In this document: positions 6,459-15,894 of the stretch, piece after piece
Layout: every line of letters begins with the position of its first letter
Position numbering within the stretch: the first letter of the stretch is position 1
From: Marvania coccoides
Taxonomy: Eukaryota > Chlorophyta > Trebouxiophyceae > Chlorellales > Chlorellaceae
Length of the DNA stretch: 64,000 nucleotides
Assembly (NCBI GenBank): GCA_963854735.1
Contig: OY978097.1
Span: 1,116,001-1,180,000, forward strand
Direction: 5' to 3'
Notes under the pieces: generated by a model
The model's database searches: none
Seen by the model: only the letters and a program-made list of their open reading frames with translations
What the model was told of the DNA's origin: nothing
Made by a program: the position numbers and the translations under genes

Positions 6459-7580
6459 TCAAGGGCGCCACCCGCGGAAGGTCTCCTGCAGGGACTCGCT
6501 CGGAGAGGTCACCGAGGGGTGAGCGCCCGAAAACTGACCTAGCGTGGCCTGTCCGTTGGCCTGCGCCACCGCTTCCGCCATCTCCCGGCACTTTTCAATC
6601 CCAGCGCCTTCTTTGGCCCACAGCTGCAGCACGCTGGCCTGCAGCGCGCGTCCGAACGAAAATGACAGCGCCCAGGGCGCCGCTGCGCCTGCTTCGCTTT
6701 GCGCCATTCGGTTGAGCTCGTTCAGATTGCGGGTGGCCTCCGCCTCCGACTGCCCCCCCGACAAAAACATAATGCCGGGCACAGCGGGCGGCACGCACTG
6801 CCGCAGCGCGCGCAGCGTGCGCCGCGCCACCTCCTCTGCCGCCGGCCTCGCCCCAGCAGCATCAATTCCAGGAATTACCATCTGCGGCTTTATGAGCACT
6901 GCTCTCAGCGGGACATTACGCCGCCACAGCGCTGCGATGCAAGCCGATACTGCCCGCACAGTGGCTTCTTCAGCGGCGTCTGCGTCGTGCCCACCGTCTA
7001 TCAGCACTTCAGGCTCCACAATGGGAACGAGCCCTGCCTCGTGGCAAATCACAGCGTACTCAGCCAGCTGCTCAGCGTTGACCTCGCAGGCAGCGGGGGA
7101 GGGGGGCACCCGCAGCGCGGCGCGCCACTTTGCGAAGCGCGCCCCCAGACGGCGGTACTCCTGGCACCGCTGCAGCAGCCCCTGCAGCCCTCGAGTCTTT
7201 GTTTCTCCTGGGTAGTTTTCCTCGTCCAGCGGCTCCAGCCCTTCGTCTACTTTTACGCCCACCAACACGCCACGAGAGGAGAGGCAGTCGACGAAGGTGG
7301 TGCCGTCGGAGTCGGTCTGGTGCAGAGCTTCAGGAAAGAGGATGGCGCCTGAAATTGAGGCGCCGATGGGAGCGGTGTAGAACAGCTCACGGTAGCGCCG
7401 CCGGTTGTCTTCGGTGTTGACGATGCCGGAGCGCTCCAGGCGCTTTCCCATGGTGGAGGGGCTCTCGTCGGAGGCAAGAATGCCCTTGCCAGGGGCGGCC
7501 AGCGCAGCTGCGACGGCTGCAAGCTCGTCGATGTTGGTGGCATTGCTCTGCATGGGTGCTGGCGAGGTCGCTGATGCCAT
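6459..7580 (-). CDS. FBA: Class I fructose-bisphosphate aldolase
   Basis: An intronless gene of 373 residues, the normal family length. The enzyme cleaves fructose 1,6-bisphosphate to two triose phosphates in glycolysis, gluconeogenesis or the Calvin cycle. Conserved positions equivalent to muscle aldolase Asp33, Lys107, Lys146, Glu187 and Schiff-base Lys229 appear as D38 (ASDES), K110 (VGVKVDEG), K151 (FAKWR), E189 (IVEPEV) and K231 (LIKPQMV). The N terminus is short, with only about 15 residues before the fold begins, so it looks cytosolic unless an unseen exon adds a transit peptide. The C terminus ends FRGWRP and lacks the terminal tyrosine that many eukaryotic class I aldolases use. The reading frame abuts AT-rich sequence just upstream of the KDZ element. 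Confidence 0.93.
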   Translation of the reverse strand: MASATSPAPMQSNATNIDELAAVAAALAAPGKGILASDESPSTMGKRLERSGIVNTEDNRRRYRELFYTAPIGASISGAILFPEALHQTDSDGTTFVDCLSSRGVLVGVKVDEGLEPLDEENYPGETKTRGLQGLLQRCQEYRRLGARFAKWRAALRVPPSPAACEVNAEQLAEYAVICHEAGLVPIVEPEVLIDGGHDADAAEEATVRAVSACIAALWRRNVPLRAVLIKPQMVIPGIDAAGARPAAEEVARRTLRALRQCVPPAVPGIMFLSGGQSEAEATRNLNELNRMAQSEAGAAAPWALSFSFGRALQASVLQLWAKEGAGIEKCREMAEAVAQANGQATLGQFSGAHPSVTSPSESLQETFRGWRP

Positions 7581-7826
7581 GTAGTGATTTTGCGGGTTGT
7601 TGATTGTTGATTTGGAAGCAAATGCACTTGAAATGCTTGAGAAAATTTCCGAAAATGTGATCTAAAACTTTGTGACAGGAATAATTATTGAGATAATAAG
7701 CCCCTCTTGCGTGCAGTTGCTTCTAACAATTGAATAATGTTAGCGATGCAATAAAATATGTATAAAGTAATATATAAATAAAGAGGATTTTGGGGCAGCT
7801 GTGTTTTTCAAAATTGTGCCCCCCAA
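7581..7826. promoter_or_regulatory. Upstream region of the aldolase gene, up to the transposon insertion point
   Basis: AT-rich and free of reading frames. It should hold the aldolase promoter; the transposon sits about 250 bp upstream of the aldolase start codon. No specific element was recognised. Confidence 0.4.
7820..7826. repeat. Left copy of the target-site duplication, CCCCCAA
   Basis: The same 7 bases directly follow the right terminal repeat at 15888-15894. The left flank has one extra C in front, so an original 8-bp duplication with one C lost on the right is possible. Confidence 0.8.
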
Positions 7827-7917
7827 CAGGTAAGCCAGTCGGTAAGAAAGGGAGACAGTCTTCGGGAGTGGAGCGAGGAAATTCATTGATTTAGGAATGA
7901 AACTCAGCCAAATCGCC
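7827..7917. repeat. Left terminal inverted repeat of the KDZ element (91 bp)
   Basis: It begins CAGGTAAGCC and matches the reverse complement of 15797-15887 at 90 of 91 positions; the single difference is T here against A at position 5. The start codon I prefer for the left gene lies 73 bp inside the inner end, so this repeat probably carries or adjoins that gene's promoter. Confidence 0.97.
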
Positions 7918-7990
7918 ATTATTTTAGCTGGTTCGCGGCTTGTTATTTAAAACATTGTCTATATTGTTTATGTCCTTGACGCGGGGCGCT

Positions 7991-10900
7991 ATGTCCGACT
8001 CTATTATGATGCTCGACCCGAAGGATCCCGCACAACTCAAATTGACGCCTGCTCAGAAGAAACGCGCCGCAGATGCGCAAGGATATCAAGTTGCACGAAT
8101 CGATGAATACGTACGAAGACTCACCGAATCTTCGCCTAAATCGAACATCATTTGCATAATCCAGTCTGGTTTTAGCGAAAATTTCCCGGTGTATGTTGTT
8201 CGACCCGGAAACGAAGATCCGGTTTGGGCGGAAGCAATGCGAACGGAAATCATGAAGCAGATTTTGGCGAAAAATGCCGACAGCAAGGCCCCCGTCAAAA
8301 ACATCAGTCTGCTCGGCCCTGACGACGCTGTGGGCTTCCTGGCGGGCATCCAAGAAGCCTATCGACGCGGACTTCTCGCCCGCAGCCAAGTAGTGGCGCT
8401 GCAGGAGATGAACGAGACCATCAAGAAGGGTACGATATAAAATTTCGTATTGATCCCGCCAAGCTTGCCGACGTCTAATTCTTCCACGTTGCAGACGAGG
8501 CGGCAAAGGCGAAGAAGGCCCGCAAGACACAGAGCACCAACTGGATGGCCCTTGGCAATTCTGCCGCTGCTGTGGGGCCAGCAAGCGGCGCTGGGCGTGG
8601 CAGCAGCGACAGTGAAGCGGAGGAGGAGGAGGAGGGTAAGAACTACGTCGTAGTAAATTAAGATGAATTTGAGGTATTATAATATATTCAAACTTCAGTA
8701 CAAATAAATACTGTGCGCTTCTTCTCAAATGTTTTTTATTTTAGGCGCTGCTGGTGATGAAGCCACATCTCCCATTCGGGGTGGACCTCAAGCTGCGAGG
8801 GCCGCAGCAGGTATGTCGCAGCCAAACACGCGTCTGCCTGCCTCGGCCTTGTCTGCCGAGGAGCTCCATGCCGAGGGAGTTGGTCTCGGTTTGGCTGCCT
8901 CAGCTGCAGCAGCTCCTGGCTCCGCTGCTGCTGCTGCTGGGCCTAGCCGCGAAGGGTTGCGGCGATCAGGGGCGGGCCAGCGGCAGCCAGGCACTTTGGC
9001 TGGTTCTCCGGCTTTGCTGGCTGAAGACGCGACTGGTGATGCAGCAGCGGGCGACGCGGAAGCAGATCAAGCTGGCGTCGAACCAGAAGAAGAGGAGGGG
9101 GCAGATCCTGAGCCAGGTGAGGCGGTGGCTGGCAGCAGCGGGCAGCCGGTGGCAGGAGTGGCCAGCGCTGCTGGCGGTGGCAGGTACGATGAGGCATATA
9201 AACCCTGTGAGGATAGTGCTGTGGAAGTAATTGTTCAATGCTGTGTTTCTCCGCATTCTTTTTTCAGTTCCAAGCGAAGGCGGCAGCCCAGCCACAAGGC
9301 AGCCCAGCAGGAGGCTTTGGAGGGCGACGGAGATGAAGAGGTTGACGTGCTTGAAGAGCCGTCGGCACAGCGGGCGAAGGGGCCCAGGTATGTTTATGTT
9401 TAACTGTTTGTTCTCAGGGAAGATACAACTCACGATGGCGGCAAAGTGCTCATATCTTGACTGTGTCTTTGCAGAGCTCAGAGTATCAAAACGTTGTCGG
9501 GTCTTTTTGGCGCTGAGGTGAGTCAAATAAAATATCGGGGGGTGTTTGCTGCAATCTATTTGCTGAATGAAGCTGCGTCTTTTTTTTGAAGTGACCTCAT
9601 TTCTCATTAAAGTTTTATTACTTGTCGTTGCCATACGTCAGTTTCTTGTACTACCCTATACTATGTATCGTATGTTGATAAATCCTCTTGCTCCAGTCAA
9701 AAAGTGGCATTTTTGTTCTTATCGCCGACGTTTGCATTTGTTGTGGCCCCTTCTCAGTGGGCAGATGATCCTTTTTCAACCTGTCTTTCCGCGTTGTGTT
9801 TTAATTTACATGCATTGGGTGGCGTGCAACTTTTGAGCACATTCTATTTTTTCATGAATTTTGAAAACACGCCTCTCCCCCCCCCATTTGGCCCCCGCCA
9901 TGGAAGTTTTCATTTTTTTATTTTTTCATGAGAGCTTTGAATTGAGCTCTCAGGGGTTGTTAGAAGCGCCGAGTGCCGTGGTGATGTTTATTTCTACTTT
10001 GGTGTGGTCATTTCAAGGTCTGAGCACCAAAGATGGCGATGCCGGCAAGCGACTCGCCCCTTTTTTCGAGGCAAACAAACAAACTTGTTCTCCTAGTTCC
10101 CTTTGCCGCAGTGCTGCCCAATTGAACTCGCCCTTGATGTGCTTGCATAGTCTCGGTCGATTTGAAATTTCTCTTTCTTGTTTCAACCGGGCTTCCGCCG
10201 CGGGGATAATATTTTCTCGCCGGCACCAGCTGCAGCCTGTCTTTTGCTGGTTCTTATGGTGTGGACGTAGTTTTGGGATTGCTTTCTCTCATCAGCTAGC
10301 GGGAAAGTGCTTGCACCGCTTCCCCGACAATTTATTCAACAAATTGTGAGGCTATTGGGCCACTAGAGCGGGCTCTCTACTCGTTTTACGGCATTTCTTT
10401 TGGTACGCTATGCGTCTGAGACGTTGCTGGGGCACTAGACTCAGTTTCAGCGCTTTTAATTTTATTTTATTTTCTGAGGAGGCTGTCAACCCCCCCCCCC
10501 GGCAGCCCTCTCAGAAAAAAATGAAAAAAACAAATCTCGTTTTTTCTGCCTTACACGCGTTCCTTGGACTGTTTGGGGTATTAAACAACCATAGTCGTGA
10601 AGCTCACCCGTTTGTATGCGCTTTGCTCTGTAGATGACTGCCGCGAAGACGATGGCCATCGAGGCGCACAAGAAGTTCTTTCAAGATGGGAAAGACGTCA
10701 AGGCCAAGGGGTACGCAGGAGCTTTGCTCTCAAGCCTTAAAGAGTACTACGCAGAGGGCAGCGAGGATCGCGACAGAGTGGCTGCGGCGTTGACGGGCGC
10801 GCCGGCCATCTCCCGCTTGGTGGCCATGTGGAAAGATGAAGGCTGGGGTGAGTCACTGATGTTCATTGCTCCGCGCGTTTATCTCAAGCCTTGTTTAACT

Positions 10901-11315
10901 GTTCATTTCATGGTTAATGCTTGATTACAAATAATTTTTCTTTTGCGCAGAGTTTCCACATGTCGTTGCCTGGAATCACGCCCAAGAACAGAAGGACCAG
11001 CAGGCAGCGGCTCAGAAAGAGGCTCTGGTCACGCTTGACTTTGACCCGCCGCCCCCGGGGCCGGAGCCAAAATTTGCTGTGGAATGTTTGGCGTGGATGG
11101 AAACATTCAAGGCCGCCCATATGGAGATTCAGAGCAACGGGGAATGGAAGTTCAAGGACGAAATTGTGACATATGTTCGGGCACTAGGCCTCTATAATCG
11201 GGCCTTGAGTTGGTACAAACATTTTGATAAGATAGCTCCCACCGCTAAGCCAAAACTACATCCATATCTGGGCTTTCTAGCTAGCGCTCTCAGGGTGTGC
11301 GAGCAGCGAGGCTAG
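7991..11315 (+). CDS. Element-encoded protein of unknown function (KDZ accessory gene)
   Basis: Seven exons (7991-8429, 8495-8635, 8745-9183, 9268-9387, 9475-9517, 10634-10847, 10951-11315) join in frame with GT-AG borders to give 586 residues. Residues about 1-150 form a mixed alpha/beta-looking N-terminal region. Next comes a long Ala/Glu-rich low-complexity middle, with an acidic run EAEEEEE at about 190 and a basic cluster SKRRRQ near 340 that could be a nuclear signal. The C-terminal region (about 395-586) is a compact, Trp- and Leu-rich domain. No TET/JBP, SNF2, protease or second transposase motif was seen. Intron 5 is unusually long (1,116 bp). Its place inside the repeats and facing the transposase suggests an element-borne accessory factor, but function is unknown. 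An in-frame ATG at 7940 is an alternative start. Confidence 0.8.
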
Positions 11316-12748
11316 TGTAATCATGCAAGAACTAAGAACGGCGGTGGAGTAGTGAAGAGGCCTTGGCTGAATAAGCTGGTACTTTCTCAGATATTGTAAG
11401 CCTTGTAGCATTGCTTATCAAATGAACCTTGTAGCGAGGTGAGAGAGGCGTGAAGAAATCGGCACGAGGAGTAGCCATGCACCACTAGATAATGTTGGGT
11501 TGAGCGTTGCAAGACAAACCACATGTTGTGGTGGAAAACTTGCTAATTCCTGCATCTATGAGCTCTCAAGTGTACAAGTTTTCTCAAAGAGCTTATTTTG
11601 TGTGCATGCTAGCAAGCATCATGTTGGAATTGGAGAATCTCAAATTCGGCGACAGCGGTCCCTCAAATGGAGTGGTTGGCAACGCGTTCTCCTTGACCCA
11701 TGCACTTTTCCTGGCTCTTCCTTGCATAGTTAATCCATTTATGTTGTAATTTTGAAATTTGGTGGAAATTGATTTCATGAGTTGTTGGTGGTGCTTGGGC
11801 TGGTGCGCTTTTTCTCCTCATATCCAAGTTCACAGCTGACCGCTTTGTGGCTTGACAAATTCATGCCCCTAACTTGTTGGAATGCAGCCTTACACCCCCG
11901 GGAGACGTAATCCTAGTCAAGGCATGCATAAGAATACTCTTCACCTCAAAATTCCACTGCCTCCTTTAATTCCACCTTTTCTCCACCGATGCGGCAGAAT
12001 GGTTGAGCCTTCAGTGCGCTGCTTTCTTTGCGCCCCATGCGCCTATCACCCCCATGAGCACGTATGTAGACGCCTTCGAGCTCCATTTTCGAAATGAATG
12101 GAATATGTTTCATTCTTCCCAGAGATTTCTCTTTAATTTCCGTCGGCGCAATGAGTTCAAGGAAGCTGGCCATGGCCAAGCACGCTTTCGCTCAAACTTT
12201 GCAGCAACGTTCTCGTGGCAAATATGACTCCAAATCACTGGGAGAGACTGGGATAACACCCCAAGGCATTAAATGCGCTGCCGCCTTGAGACACAAAGGT
12301 TGTTCTTCCTTTCTGCACAGCAAACTTAAAAAATGAATAGCAATGGTTGCTTCGATGTCTATATACGACGTCTGTGCCCAAACACTTGGAGAATTGACGC
12401 CCAATTGCTCAGCTTGTAACACCAAGTATGGCGGTGACCAGCGCTGCAAACAGAATACAAAGCACACCCTCACGAACGCCTCGTAATTCTGCGTCCCAGT
12501 ACTCTAAACGATCAAACGTACTATGTGGCTCAATTTTGGCGAACAATTCTAAATTTGATTAACTTAAAATTGGATTGAAACCCAGATAATATAATGTTGA
12601 TGGCGCACCAGATCAAACGGTACAAAAACAGCAATTAAATGAAGGATACATGAAAAATAACACTACAAATACATATATATGAATGATAAACAATTGGGGA
12701 AGCACATATTAATGTACACACGTCGGAGCCCTAGCCGCTGCAAATTTA
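11316..12748. other. Gene-free centre of the KDZ element
   Basis: Lies between the convergent 3' ends of the two element genes. Only short frames without family resemblance occur. It must contain both 3' UTRs; no repeats, RNA gene or nested insertion were recognised. Confidence 0.5.
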
Positions 12749-15726
12749 CTACTGCCCGGGCGGCCGTGGGAGGTATTGGTGCAAGCGGTTGAAGGCTTCC
12801 TTGTGAATGCAGCGCAAGCGCTCATCTTCCCGCCGCAGCAGCACCCCTTTTCCCACCGCCAACCTGCGCTGCTCCTCCAACTCAAAGGCATCGCTGAGGC
12901 TCAGCTCAACAGCCTCTAGGCCACCAGCACACCGAGCTGCTTCTGCCTCCGCGGCAGCAATGGCTGCTCCAACTGCGCCCTCGCGGACCTCCAGCCAATT
13001 GAACACGCGCACGGTCTCGATCTTCAACAGCTCGACCTCCTCCTCTGTGCGTGCCAGCTGGTTGACAGCCGTGCGGTACCGCATGCCAAAATGTCGCCGG
13101 GCGGATGCCGTCCCGTTCCCCACCAAGGCAGAGCCCCAAAGGAAATCTTGGCGCAACGTCCCGTTCAACTCTGCATCGGTGACCGGGGGGGGGGCAGCAT
13201 CATCTGGAAACATCTGCCACCGCTTCCACTTCCCCAGAAGCCCCTTCACGTTGCCCTTGGTGCTCGACATCCGCGTCTTCAGCGCGTGCCCGTTTTTGCC
13301 GCTCTCCAACCGACTCAGCTCCTGCTTGATCTGCGAGTACTTGAACACTTGGTCCTCTATCAGGCGCTGAAAGTGCTGCAGCGTGTGTTGCTTCACCTCC
13401 TCCTCGGCTTCCTTGTACTCCGGCGAATCCACCTCCCAGGGCTGGGCGGGCTGCATCTTCCCGGCTAGCGTGAGTGTCACCTCAAAGCTGCCACGCGCAT
13501 TGACCAGCCGCGCACGCACGCCGCTGTCACTCCTACGGTCCATGTTGATACCGATGTTGTCGGGCAGCAAGATGTCTATGGCAGCCCTGCGGTGGCTGAT
13601 GTTGTCCAGCGCGTCCAGCTTCATCACCACAATGACGTACTGCGCAGCGGTGCTGAGGTCAGCCTGCGAGGCGCCCTCGCCACCGTCCAGATCACTCATG
13701 GCGGCATCCAAGTCAGTCACCCCCTGGGCCCTTGCGTCGTCCTCAATCTTTTTCTTTTCTAATGTACATGTTCCTGCGTAAAAAAGCAGAACACCGGCAG
13801 TTTTAGTTTCACTGGAGATTGCATCTATCGGTCTATTGCCATAAAAGAGCCTATATAAAATCAACAAATAAAAAAATAAAACCCCACCTATCTTTGCATC
13901 GATTCTCAAAATTCTGGCCGCCAACATCTTGGGAAAATTCCACTGCTTGCGGAGACTGAGGAGCAGAAACAGCATGTCCATGCAATCCCTCCAGTTTGCA
14001 TGCGTCATGTACCGCGCCACCTTGCAGAACTTCTTGATCTCGGACCAGAGCTCCTCAGTCTGCTCGCCCACGCGGCGTGCCGCGCCCACCTGGTACAGCG
14101 CGCTGTTCTTCACCTGGCAGGCCATGTCATGGTCAAAGGCGTGCATCATGGGCAGCATGAGACGGATGTCATCCAACCCCGCAACGCGGTCTCGCAGCCT
14201 GTCCAGCAGCATTGACCACCGCCCCCGGAATCTGCAAGCCAGGTCCAGGAAAACAATTTCCAAGTCTGGCCTGCTCTGGATCAGCGATTCCAGCAAATGC
14301 TCGTAGTAGGTGTGGTTTTCGGGGGTCACCATGGGGATGGCGAGCCCCAGCAAGGGGACAACATGGGAGCAACACGCTGCCACCAAGCCGCTGATGTCCG
14401 TCTCGGCCCTGCCCGCCTTCACCGTGGGACGGTTGCATGACAGCTCGGTGGTGCAGCGAGGCCGCACACCTGAGCCATCATCCAGCTCCAGGTCGGCCGC
14501 TGCACGGTTCTGGGCCTCGCTGACCATTTCTCCAGAAGCGTGCAGCTGGCTCACTTTTTCAGCCACCGTGGAAATATACAGTCGCAAAGTTGGCTTGTTG
14601 CTATGCTGACTGCTGCCGGCTGATGTGAAATGGTTGGCAGAGCAGATGGCGTCCATGCTAGCGCAACATTTGCCACTCTGAACTGGAATACCTGCAGAAC
14701 GTTCAATCAACTTAGACCCCAGTCCGAAATCAAGGGATGCTTATAAAGGAAATTTTGGAGTTTAGCTCCTCACCGTTGGTCAAATACGGTCGGACGGTCA
14801 TAGCGCAAACTGGACAGTGGGCAAAGGGGTCGGGGAGCAGCGAAATGAGAGCTTTGGCCAGGATCTCAACCTTTCCCAACTCCACCGTGGCGGTGACGAG
14901 CTGCTGCGGCTTCAAACCCCCACTGATTTCTTCATCCCTAGAATTTTGTATTGTGATTCCGGAGGGCTGCAGGCGGCGCTCCTCGTTTTCTCGGGCACGA
15001 AGAAACGCTGCAATGAAGATCAACATATGTTAATACACATTCATGAAACAATAGCAGCCGCTGCAGATGTTTCTTACCGTTGGCAGCCAGCCCATTGTTG
15101 AGGTTCATGTCCCGGAAGGTGAGCAGGAAGGACTGAGAAATCCAGGTCAAGCAGTTCTCCGTTGGAGTTGTGGGGGCACAGTCTACCGTGTAAGGGTGCA
15201 CTTCAATATTCTTGCCGCATGCGTCGCAGTGATACGACTGCACCCACACGGTGGCTCTGTAGGCGTGGTCTATGTACTGCACAGCGCGGCGGGCAGTCTG
15301 GTGAACAGGGGACGAACCTCCGGCGTCTTGCCGGTGGCGGGCAAAGCAAGGGTGTCGCTGGACGGCGTCCTCTGCAACCGCATCCACGTGGCCCTGGATG
15401 CACGCCGTCCGCGCTTCGTCGATTTTTTTCTTCAGTTTTGCTGCCCAAGGTGCCGCCTTTCTGAACTCGTCCACGTTGGCAGCTCGGCGGTTATCAAATT
15501 CTTCAGCCTGCCTCTTCATATCTCCCCTGTAGGTTCTCGTCTTTGGATCGACATCTTCCTCATCGCCGGAAAAATTGGGCGAGGGATTGTTTGGCAGCTC
15601 GTCATTGGCGGATGCGTGATGCCGTGAACCACGACGCGGGTCTGGAGGGGCCTGGCCTGGCCTCTTGGCCCGCGAATTGTCGGGACGACCTTGGCCCGCA
15701 GCGATAGGTACTACTCGTCTCGGCAT
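12749..15726 (-). CDS. KDZ-superfamily transposase
   Basis: Four exons (15726-15078, 15007-14774, 14691-13888, 13773-12749) give 903 residues. The N-terminal third has the cysteine cluster of the family: C167xxC170, C183, C192 in a CDACGKN...DCAP...NCLTW context, followed by the TFRDMN segment. A second CPVC pair is at 281-284. The RNase-H-fold catalytic acids fit D308 (SMDAI), D444 (FLDLAC) and E504 (GEQTEELWS), and the HxxxHDxxCQ-like segment MHAFDHDMACQ lies between the last two, as in other KDZ transposases. The C-terminal 350 residues are helical and partly coiled coil, also typical. A splice-acceptor-like tag lies just 5' of the ATG, so a 5' UTR intron is possible. The transposase would excise and reinsert the element in the nucleus. 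No damage is visible. Confidence 0.93.
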
Positions 15727-15796
15727 CGTGTCCGGCTCGGCTACAATGTGAAAACATACAATATACATATAATCCTAGAATATTAGGGCTAAAGGA

Positions 15797-15887
15797 GGCG
15801 ATTTGGCTGAGTTTCATTCCTAAATCAATGAATTTCCTCGCTCCACTCCCGAAGACTGTCTCCCTTTCTTACCGACTGGCTTTCCTG
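15797..15887. repeat. Right terminal inverted repeat of the KDZ element (91 bp)
   Basis: Reverse complement of 7827-7917 with one mismatch. It ends ...GGCTTTCCTG. The transposase start codon lies 70 bp inside, so this repeat probably holds the transposase promoter. Confidence 0.97.
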
Positions 15888-15894
15888 CCCCCAA
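15888..15894. repeat. Right copy of the target-site duplication, CCCCCAA
   Basis: Directly abuts the outer end of the right terminal repeat and equals bases 7820-7826. Confidence 0.8.

Follow-up and report, generated by a model that had tools for sequence, protein, structure and literature searches.

A structurally complete, Kyakuja-like transposon of probable KDZ affiliation in the genome of the green alga Marvania coccoides

We analysed a stretch of 64,000 nucleotides of the Marvania coccoides genome (hereafter the window; C1:1116001-1180000 of an assembly of 22,462,713 bases in 15 contigs). An interval of 8,061 bp within it is, in all probability, a complete and structurally autonomous cut-and-paste transposon of the KDZ superfamily, Kyakuja-like in its 7-bp target-site duplication and its CA..TG ends. 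Table 1 gives its features. The element is compact and its ends are exact. Three insertion sites in the 22.5-Mb genome show 7-bp duplications, and two sister copies have moved recently; together these traits offer a tractable start for biochemical tests of a KDZ transposase.

The element is located 246 bp upstream of the candidate start (position 7580) of a minus-strand gene for class I fructose-bisphosphate aldolase and 150 bp past the stop of a minus-strand ERCC4-domain gene. As a separate observation, the RuBisCO small subunit gave four matches within 10 kb at G000:C7:351572-361242, forming a gene cluster, and one match each on C4 and C11.

Table 1. Features of the candidate transposon; positions are numbered from the first letter of the window
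Feature	Position	Strand	Details and basis
Whole KDZ transposon (candidate), 8,061 bp	7827..15887		TIRs, duplication, comparison with two other full copies
Left target-site duplication	7820..7826		CCCCCAA; flank comparison
Right target-site duplication	15888..15894		CCCCCAA; flank comparison
Left terminal inverted repeat	7827..7917	+	Starts CAGGTAAG; inverted-repeat match
Right terminal inverted repeat	15797..15887	-	CAGGAAAG on the minus strand, position 5 being the single mismatch with the left repeat; inverted-repeat match
Gene 1 (predicted), 586 aa	7991..11315	+	Exons 7991-8429, 8495-8635, 8745-9183, 9268-9387, 9475-9517, 10634-10847, 10951-11315 (with stop)
Transposase gene (predicted), 903 aa	12749..15726	-	Exons 15726-15078, 15007-14774, 14691-13888, 13773-12749 (with stop)
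Transposase exon 3	13888..14691	-	Bears the stretch matched by the KDZ model (residues 305-536); profile match
Transposase exon 1	15078..15726	-	CxxC cluster (CxC3-like, below cut-off); profile match, alignment

Ends of the element and its copies in the genome

The two terminal inverted repeats (TIRs) of the window element are 91 nt long and 99% complementary, and the outermost bases of the element are CAGG..CCTG. Among the lengths from 2 to 12 bp that were tried for the flanking duplication, 7 bp was the only one that fitted. The first-pass annotation of this DNA had described 91-bp TIRs differing at one base and a 7-bp direct duplication abutting both, and the sequence bears out both statements. 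It had also proposed a search of the host genome with the repeat. That search recovered two further full copies as well as a lone left end, and the ends are where they had been claimed to be: both other full copies stop at the corresponding bases, each with a 7-bp duplication of its own.

In this search, the left end of the window element gave seven matches in the genome, six of them the two ends of three elements and the seventh a left end without a partner. The two additional full copies are found at C8:400237-407717 and C7:1129361-1136801 (loci L008 and L009). They match the window element at 82-83% over pieces of the transposase gene, at 83% over the first 260 bp and at 73-78% over four other pieces each. 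Their target-site duplications are CCCCGGG (C8) and AAATTTA (C7), again 7 bp only when lengths of 2-12 bp were tried. All three full copies, at three sites, have CAGG..CCTG as outermost bases (the position-5 change in the window copy apart), long TIRs (91 bp in the window, 70 bp in C7 and C8) and 7-bp duplications. With the KDZ domain model, all three candidates scored in the host genome exceeded the cut-off, compared with none in 14 control genomes; only the best candidates were scored, and genome copy counts are therefore lower bounds.

Two fragments were detected besides the full copies. One, beginning at C3:1039612 and about 640 bp long (L010 4001-4640), comprises the 5' end only and is closer to the subfamily of the C8 copy (88-91%). 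The other, on C13 at approximately 152,724-152,924 (L027), is a 5' end lacking the outermost 56 bp, and it is closer to the window copy (87% over 180 bp, versus 80% over 193 bp). Both fragments derive from the 5' (gene 1) end.

No substitution separates the C7 copy from the C8 copy over their whole length. A poly-C run differs in length by 4 bp and a (TCC)n run, located in transposase intron 3, by 36 bp, and these are the only differences. A blastn piece gave two mismatches between them at the (TCC)n run, where the alignment of the whole elements gave none. The flanks of the two copies do not align to each other. Because the copies show no substitutions and their flanks are unrelated by alignment, we conclude that C7 and C8 represent two independent insertions of a single subfamily, both very recent, and hence that this sister subfamily has moved very recently in the same genome. 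In the region that separates the alignable portions of the two genes (11101-12729, compared with L008 4448-5212), the window copy has about 860 bp more, an excess that either an insertion here or a deletion in its sisters would explain. The 1.4-kb stretch between its genes had only its self-match in the genome.

The two genes

The first-pass annotation held that two genes are open through all 11 exons, and our analysis agrees; the genes are convergent, with seven exons in gene 1 and four in the transposase gene and GT..AG borders at all nine introns. It had also assigned the transposase to KDZ. A profile search confirmed this assignment: the Pfam KDZ domain (PF18758) matched residues 305-536 of the 903-aa protein with 73.7 bits, far above the cut-off of 26.6. 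The candidate catalytic acids D308, D444 and E504 were located at the positions given for them in the 903-aa model. They are identical in six of six aligned proteins, namely those of the window and C8 copies and the four public relatives P0001-P0004 described below, P0001 being nearly the same protein as that of the window. By the KDZ motif, these three residues would be the catalytic set; in the same alignment, D481 and E507 are conserved to the same degree. For the further claim of a retained KDZ cysteine cluster, our data are no more than suggestive, since the match to the CxC3 cluster reached 17.7 bits and stayed under its cut-off of 26.6. The CxxC pairs are also present in the C8 copy and in P0004, and P0001-P0003 are without this N-terminal stretch. 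AlphaFold2 models of the transposase from four- and six-sequence inputs had pLDDT values of 52.6 and 44.3, too poor to judge an RNase-H fold or the triad.

Transposition of the element may proceed as follows. The product of the minus-strand gene would be the transposase, whose N-terminal cysteine cluster presumably aids binding of the repeats and whose putative RNase-H-type core, with the candidate triad D308, D444 and E504, would cut at CAGG..CCTG. Joining of the ends with a 7-bp stagger would then create the 7-bp duplication. The product of the plus-strand gene 1 may be an accessory protein of unassigned family, perhaps a DNA-binding or regulatory partner. Neither excision nor transposition nor an empty site was observed.

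We compared the transposases of the window and C8 copies, in which 693 of 900 aligned residues are identical. The Nei-Gojobori estimates were 0.322 for dS and 0.137 for dN (ratio 0.425). In successive blocks of 150 alignment codons, dN/dS was 0.71, 0.44, 0.25, 0.12, 0.74 and 0.45, with 1.37 in the last 8 codons; the two lowest blocks (0.25 and 0.12) span the KDZ domain. Fisher tests, computed from rounded counts with sites treated as independent, gave p values of 2e-15 for the whole alignment and 3e-12 for the block at 0.12. The transposase is under purifying selection (dN/dS 0.43). Such constraint, together with the finding of a single copy of the window subfamily, might be expected of a domesticated pair of host genes that is no transposon at all. 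We regard domestication as highly improbable, as the TIRs and the duplication are intact, the KDZ acids are kept and recent movement is evident for sister copies that carry this gene pair.

Gene 1 had no Pfam match at E up to 1, and related pieces of its exons occur in the C8 and C7 copies. For five exon pieces compared between the window and C8 (exons 2, 4 and 5 excluded, and exon 1 split into the parts before and after an insertion), dN/dS was 0.45, 0.78, 0.98, 0.45 and 0.52 (summed p 3e-4), suggesting that gene 1 is less constrained and more diverged than the transposase gene.

The insertion in question is 158 bp long and, according to the alignment, shifts the frame in exon 1 of gene 1 in the C8 copy and likewise in the C7 copy. 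Neither the window copy nor the C3 fragment has it; among the three full copies found, only the window copy has an uninterrupted gene 1. A 161-bp stretch across the insertion (L008 1462-1622, C8:400698-400858; the same in L009) has a G+C content of 74.5%. In the downstream frame, the insertion gave a short Peptidase_S74 match (23.5 bits, cut-off 22). Its translation matched 480 phage records, all with less than 60% identity and, among the matches listed, mostly tail-fibre proteins. Elsewhere in the host genome, neither the DNA of the insertion nor a further match to Peptidase_S74 (E up to 0.1) was found.

The C7 and C8 copies moved despite their shifted gene 1. Either an intact gene 1 is not needed for movement, or a later start is used, or the protein is supplied by another copy such as that of the window. 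A stronger version of the last option would be that gene 1 encodes a second transposition protein needed by this branch of KDZ, and that C7 and C8 moved recently with protein provided in trans by the window copy. We give little credence to this version; if it were true, the KDZ elements of this genome would be two-protein transposons with concerted evolution of long TIRs.

Public protein databases were searched for relatives of the transposase. With the whole protein as query, P0001 was the sole match among the 7,993 candidates sharing most words with it. Of 4,410 candidates scored with the KDZ region, four proteins matched at E up to 10, and a four-sequence alignment again gave P0001 alone among the candidates sharing most words. 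None of the four related proteins bears a branch name. Among viral contigs, 12 pattern matches were found and none of them was confirmed as a relative.

P0001 is a protein of 618 aa that occurs on two contigs, the longest of 3,198 bases, with the source tag 'lgn'. Across 67% of the window transposase, the two proteins agree at 99% of residues, with few differences. P0001 starts with a few codons equal to the sequence of window intron 2, and it is without intron 3, being spliced exactly at the predicted junction of exons 3 and 4. Intron 3 is 114 bp long and open in frame, so that a mechanical list of open reading frames gives 663 aa at this place. P0001, read as a protein sequence, suggests a partly spliced transcript; it is the sole public protein to hint at one, and it may alternatively stem from a genomic copy that has lost intron 3. 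The distant relative P0003, known as protein only, has unrelated residues at the place of intron 3, as expected if the same intron were read through.

Age and activity of the window copy

The first-pass annotation took the near-identity of the TIRs as a sign that the window copy is young. In the first 70 TIR positions, the window and C8 copies differ 11 times when their left ends are compared and 12 times when their right ends are. Eleven of these differences recur at both ends of the two elements; the remaining one, at position 5, marks the only place where the two ends of the window element differ from each other. Such shared differences are expected from conversion of one end by the other or from replacement in the course of repair, and not from independent decay. 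Because all 11 differences are shared by both ends, the matching TIRs are no clock for the window copy, and TIR identity should not be used for dating such elements. The inference of youth fails accordingly: the TIRs change together between lineages, and a search of the genome for a near-identical copy of the window element yielded pieces of 82-84% identity at best. The related suggestion of recent movement stands for the family, as C7 and C8 demonstrate with their zero substitutions, and does not extend to the window copy, for which no such twin was found.

The window copy could be old and no longer mobile, its youthful look due to TIRs that evolve in concert, and its genes intact by chance or through serving other copies in trans. 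The shared TIR differences and the lack of a second copy of the window subfamily among those found are in line with this reading. So is the change at position 5 of the right TIR, which none of the six other ends carries and which could weaken that TIR. However, both genes are open over 11 exons, the two 7-bp duplicates match base for base, and other public data include a transposase almost identical to that of the window copy, with few residues changed, though this may be the same locus in another strain. On balance we consider an immobile relic rather unlikely, and the window copy itself may well be active.

Placement of the element among KDZ transposons

For comparison with known systems we used excerpts of four papers. 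Those of PMC12730594 describe complete KDZ elements with ends in fungi and 7-8-bp duplications for the superfamily: Kyakuja lacks TIRs, ends in CA..TG and duplicates 7 bp of its target, and 8 bp are given for Zisupton and a Dileera. In excerpts of PMC10828217, a Chlamydomonas gene harbours an insertion of Kyakuja-3_cRei, which has imperfect TIRs and is flanked by an 8-bp duplication. Excerpts of PMC12477816 report eight KDZ families in Ectocarpus with 6,403 copies (148 of them intact), up to 30.3 kb long and many with additional genes, and mention, citing other work, a 31.7-kb KDZ element that moved in Chlamydomonas. Zisupton and Kyakuja have also been recorded in Chlamydomonas and its relatives (PMC8226300, in part). 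In view of these accounts of complete elements and of movement in fungi, Ectocarpus and Chlamydomonas (PMC12730594, PMC12477816, PMC10828217), the first-pass statement that complete KDZ copies are rarely described does not hold.

The window element is most like Kyakuja in the length of its duplication and in its ends, and the fungal description of TIRs is at odds with it. The 7-bp duplications and CA..TG termini are those of Kyakuja, and the 8-bp duplication of Zisupton was found in none of the three full copies. The absence of TIRs reported for two fungal Kyakuja families does not fit; given the TIRs described for Chlamydomonas Kyakuja-3 in the excerpts of PMC10828217, it may not define the branch. 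It is quite conceivable, although we do not favour it, that the element belongs to Zisupton, Dileera or an unnamed KDZ branch, which would leave everything in our main explanation but the branch name. The long TIRs, which the two fungal Kyakuja families lack in the excerpts of PMC12730594, point that way, whereas 7-bp duplications with CA..TG ends point to Kyakuja over the 8 bp of Zisupton and a Dileera in the same source. Duplication length alone cannot decide the branch, because Kyakuja-3_cRei has 8 bp (PMC10828217, in part).

With the Kyakuja-like placement retained, the nearest described systems differ in several respects. The fungal Kyakuja-1_LB and Kyakuja-2_LB share the KDZ group, 7-bp duplications and CA..TG termini with the window element, but in the excerpts of PMC12730594 they are without TIRs and carry a TET/JBP gene; here the TIRs are 91 bp (window) or 70 bp (C7 and C8) long, the second gene has no Pfam match, and no TET/JBP dioxygenase match was found in either protein with Pfam at E up to 1. 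Kyakuja-3_cRei of Chlamydomonas reinhardtii is likewise a KDZ element of a green alga with TIRs, and it has been seen to move; its duplication is 8 bp and its TIRs are imperfect (PMC10828217, in part), in contrast to the 7-bp duplication and long, near-perfect TIRs of the window element. Zisupton belongs to the same superfamily and has TIRs, but its duplications are given as 8 bp in the excerpts of PMC12730594, compared with 7 bp in all three full copies here. The combination of a 7-bp duplication with long, near-perfect TIRs does not appear in the descriptions contained in the excerpts of PMC12730594, PMC10828217, PMC12477816 and PMC8226300. Ectocarpus also has intact algal copies of KDZ elements (PMC12477816, in part); we found three full copies of 7.4-8.1 kb and two fragments. 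Measured against these partly consulted sources, the window element is a new example of KDZ, a kind of transposon that is already known.
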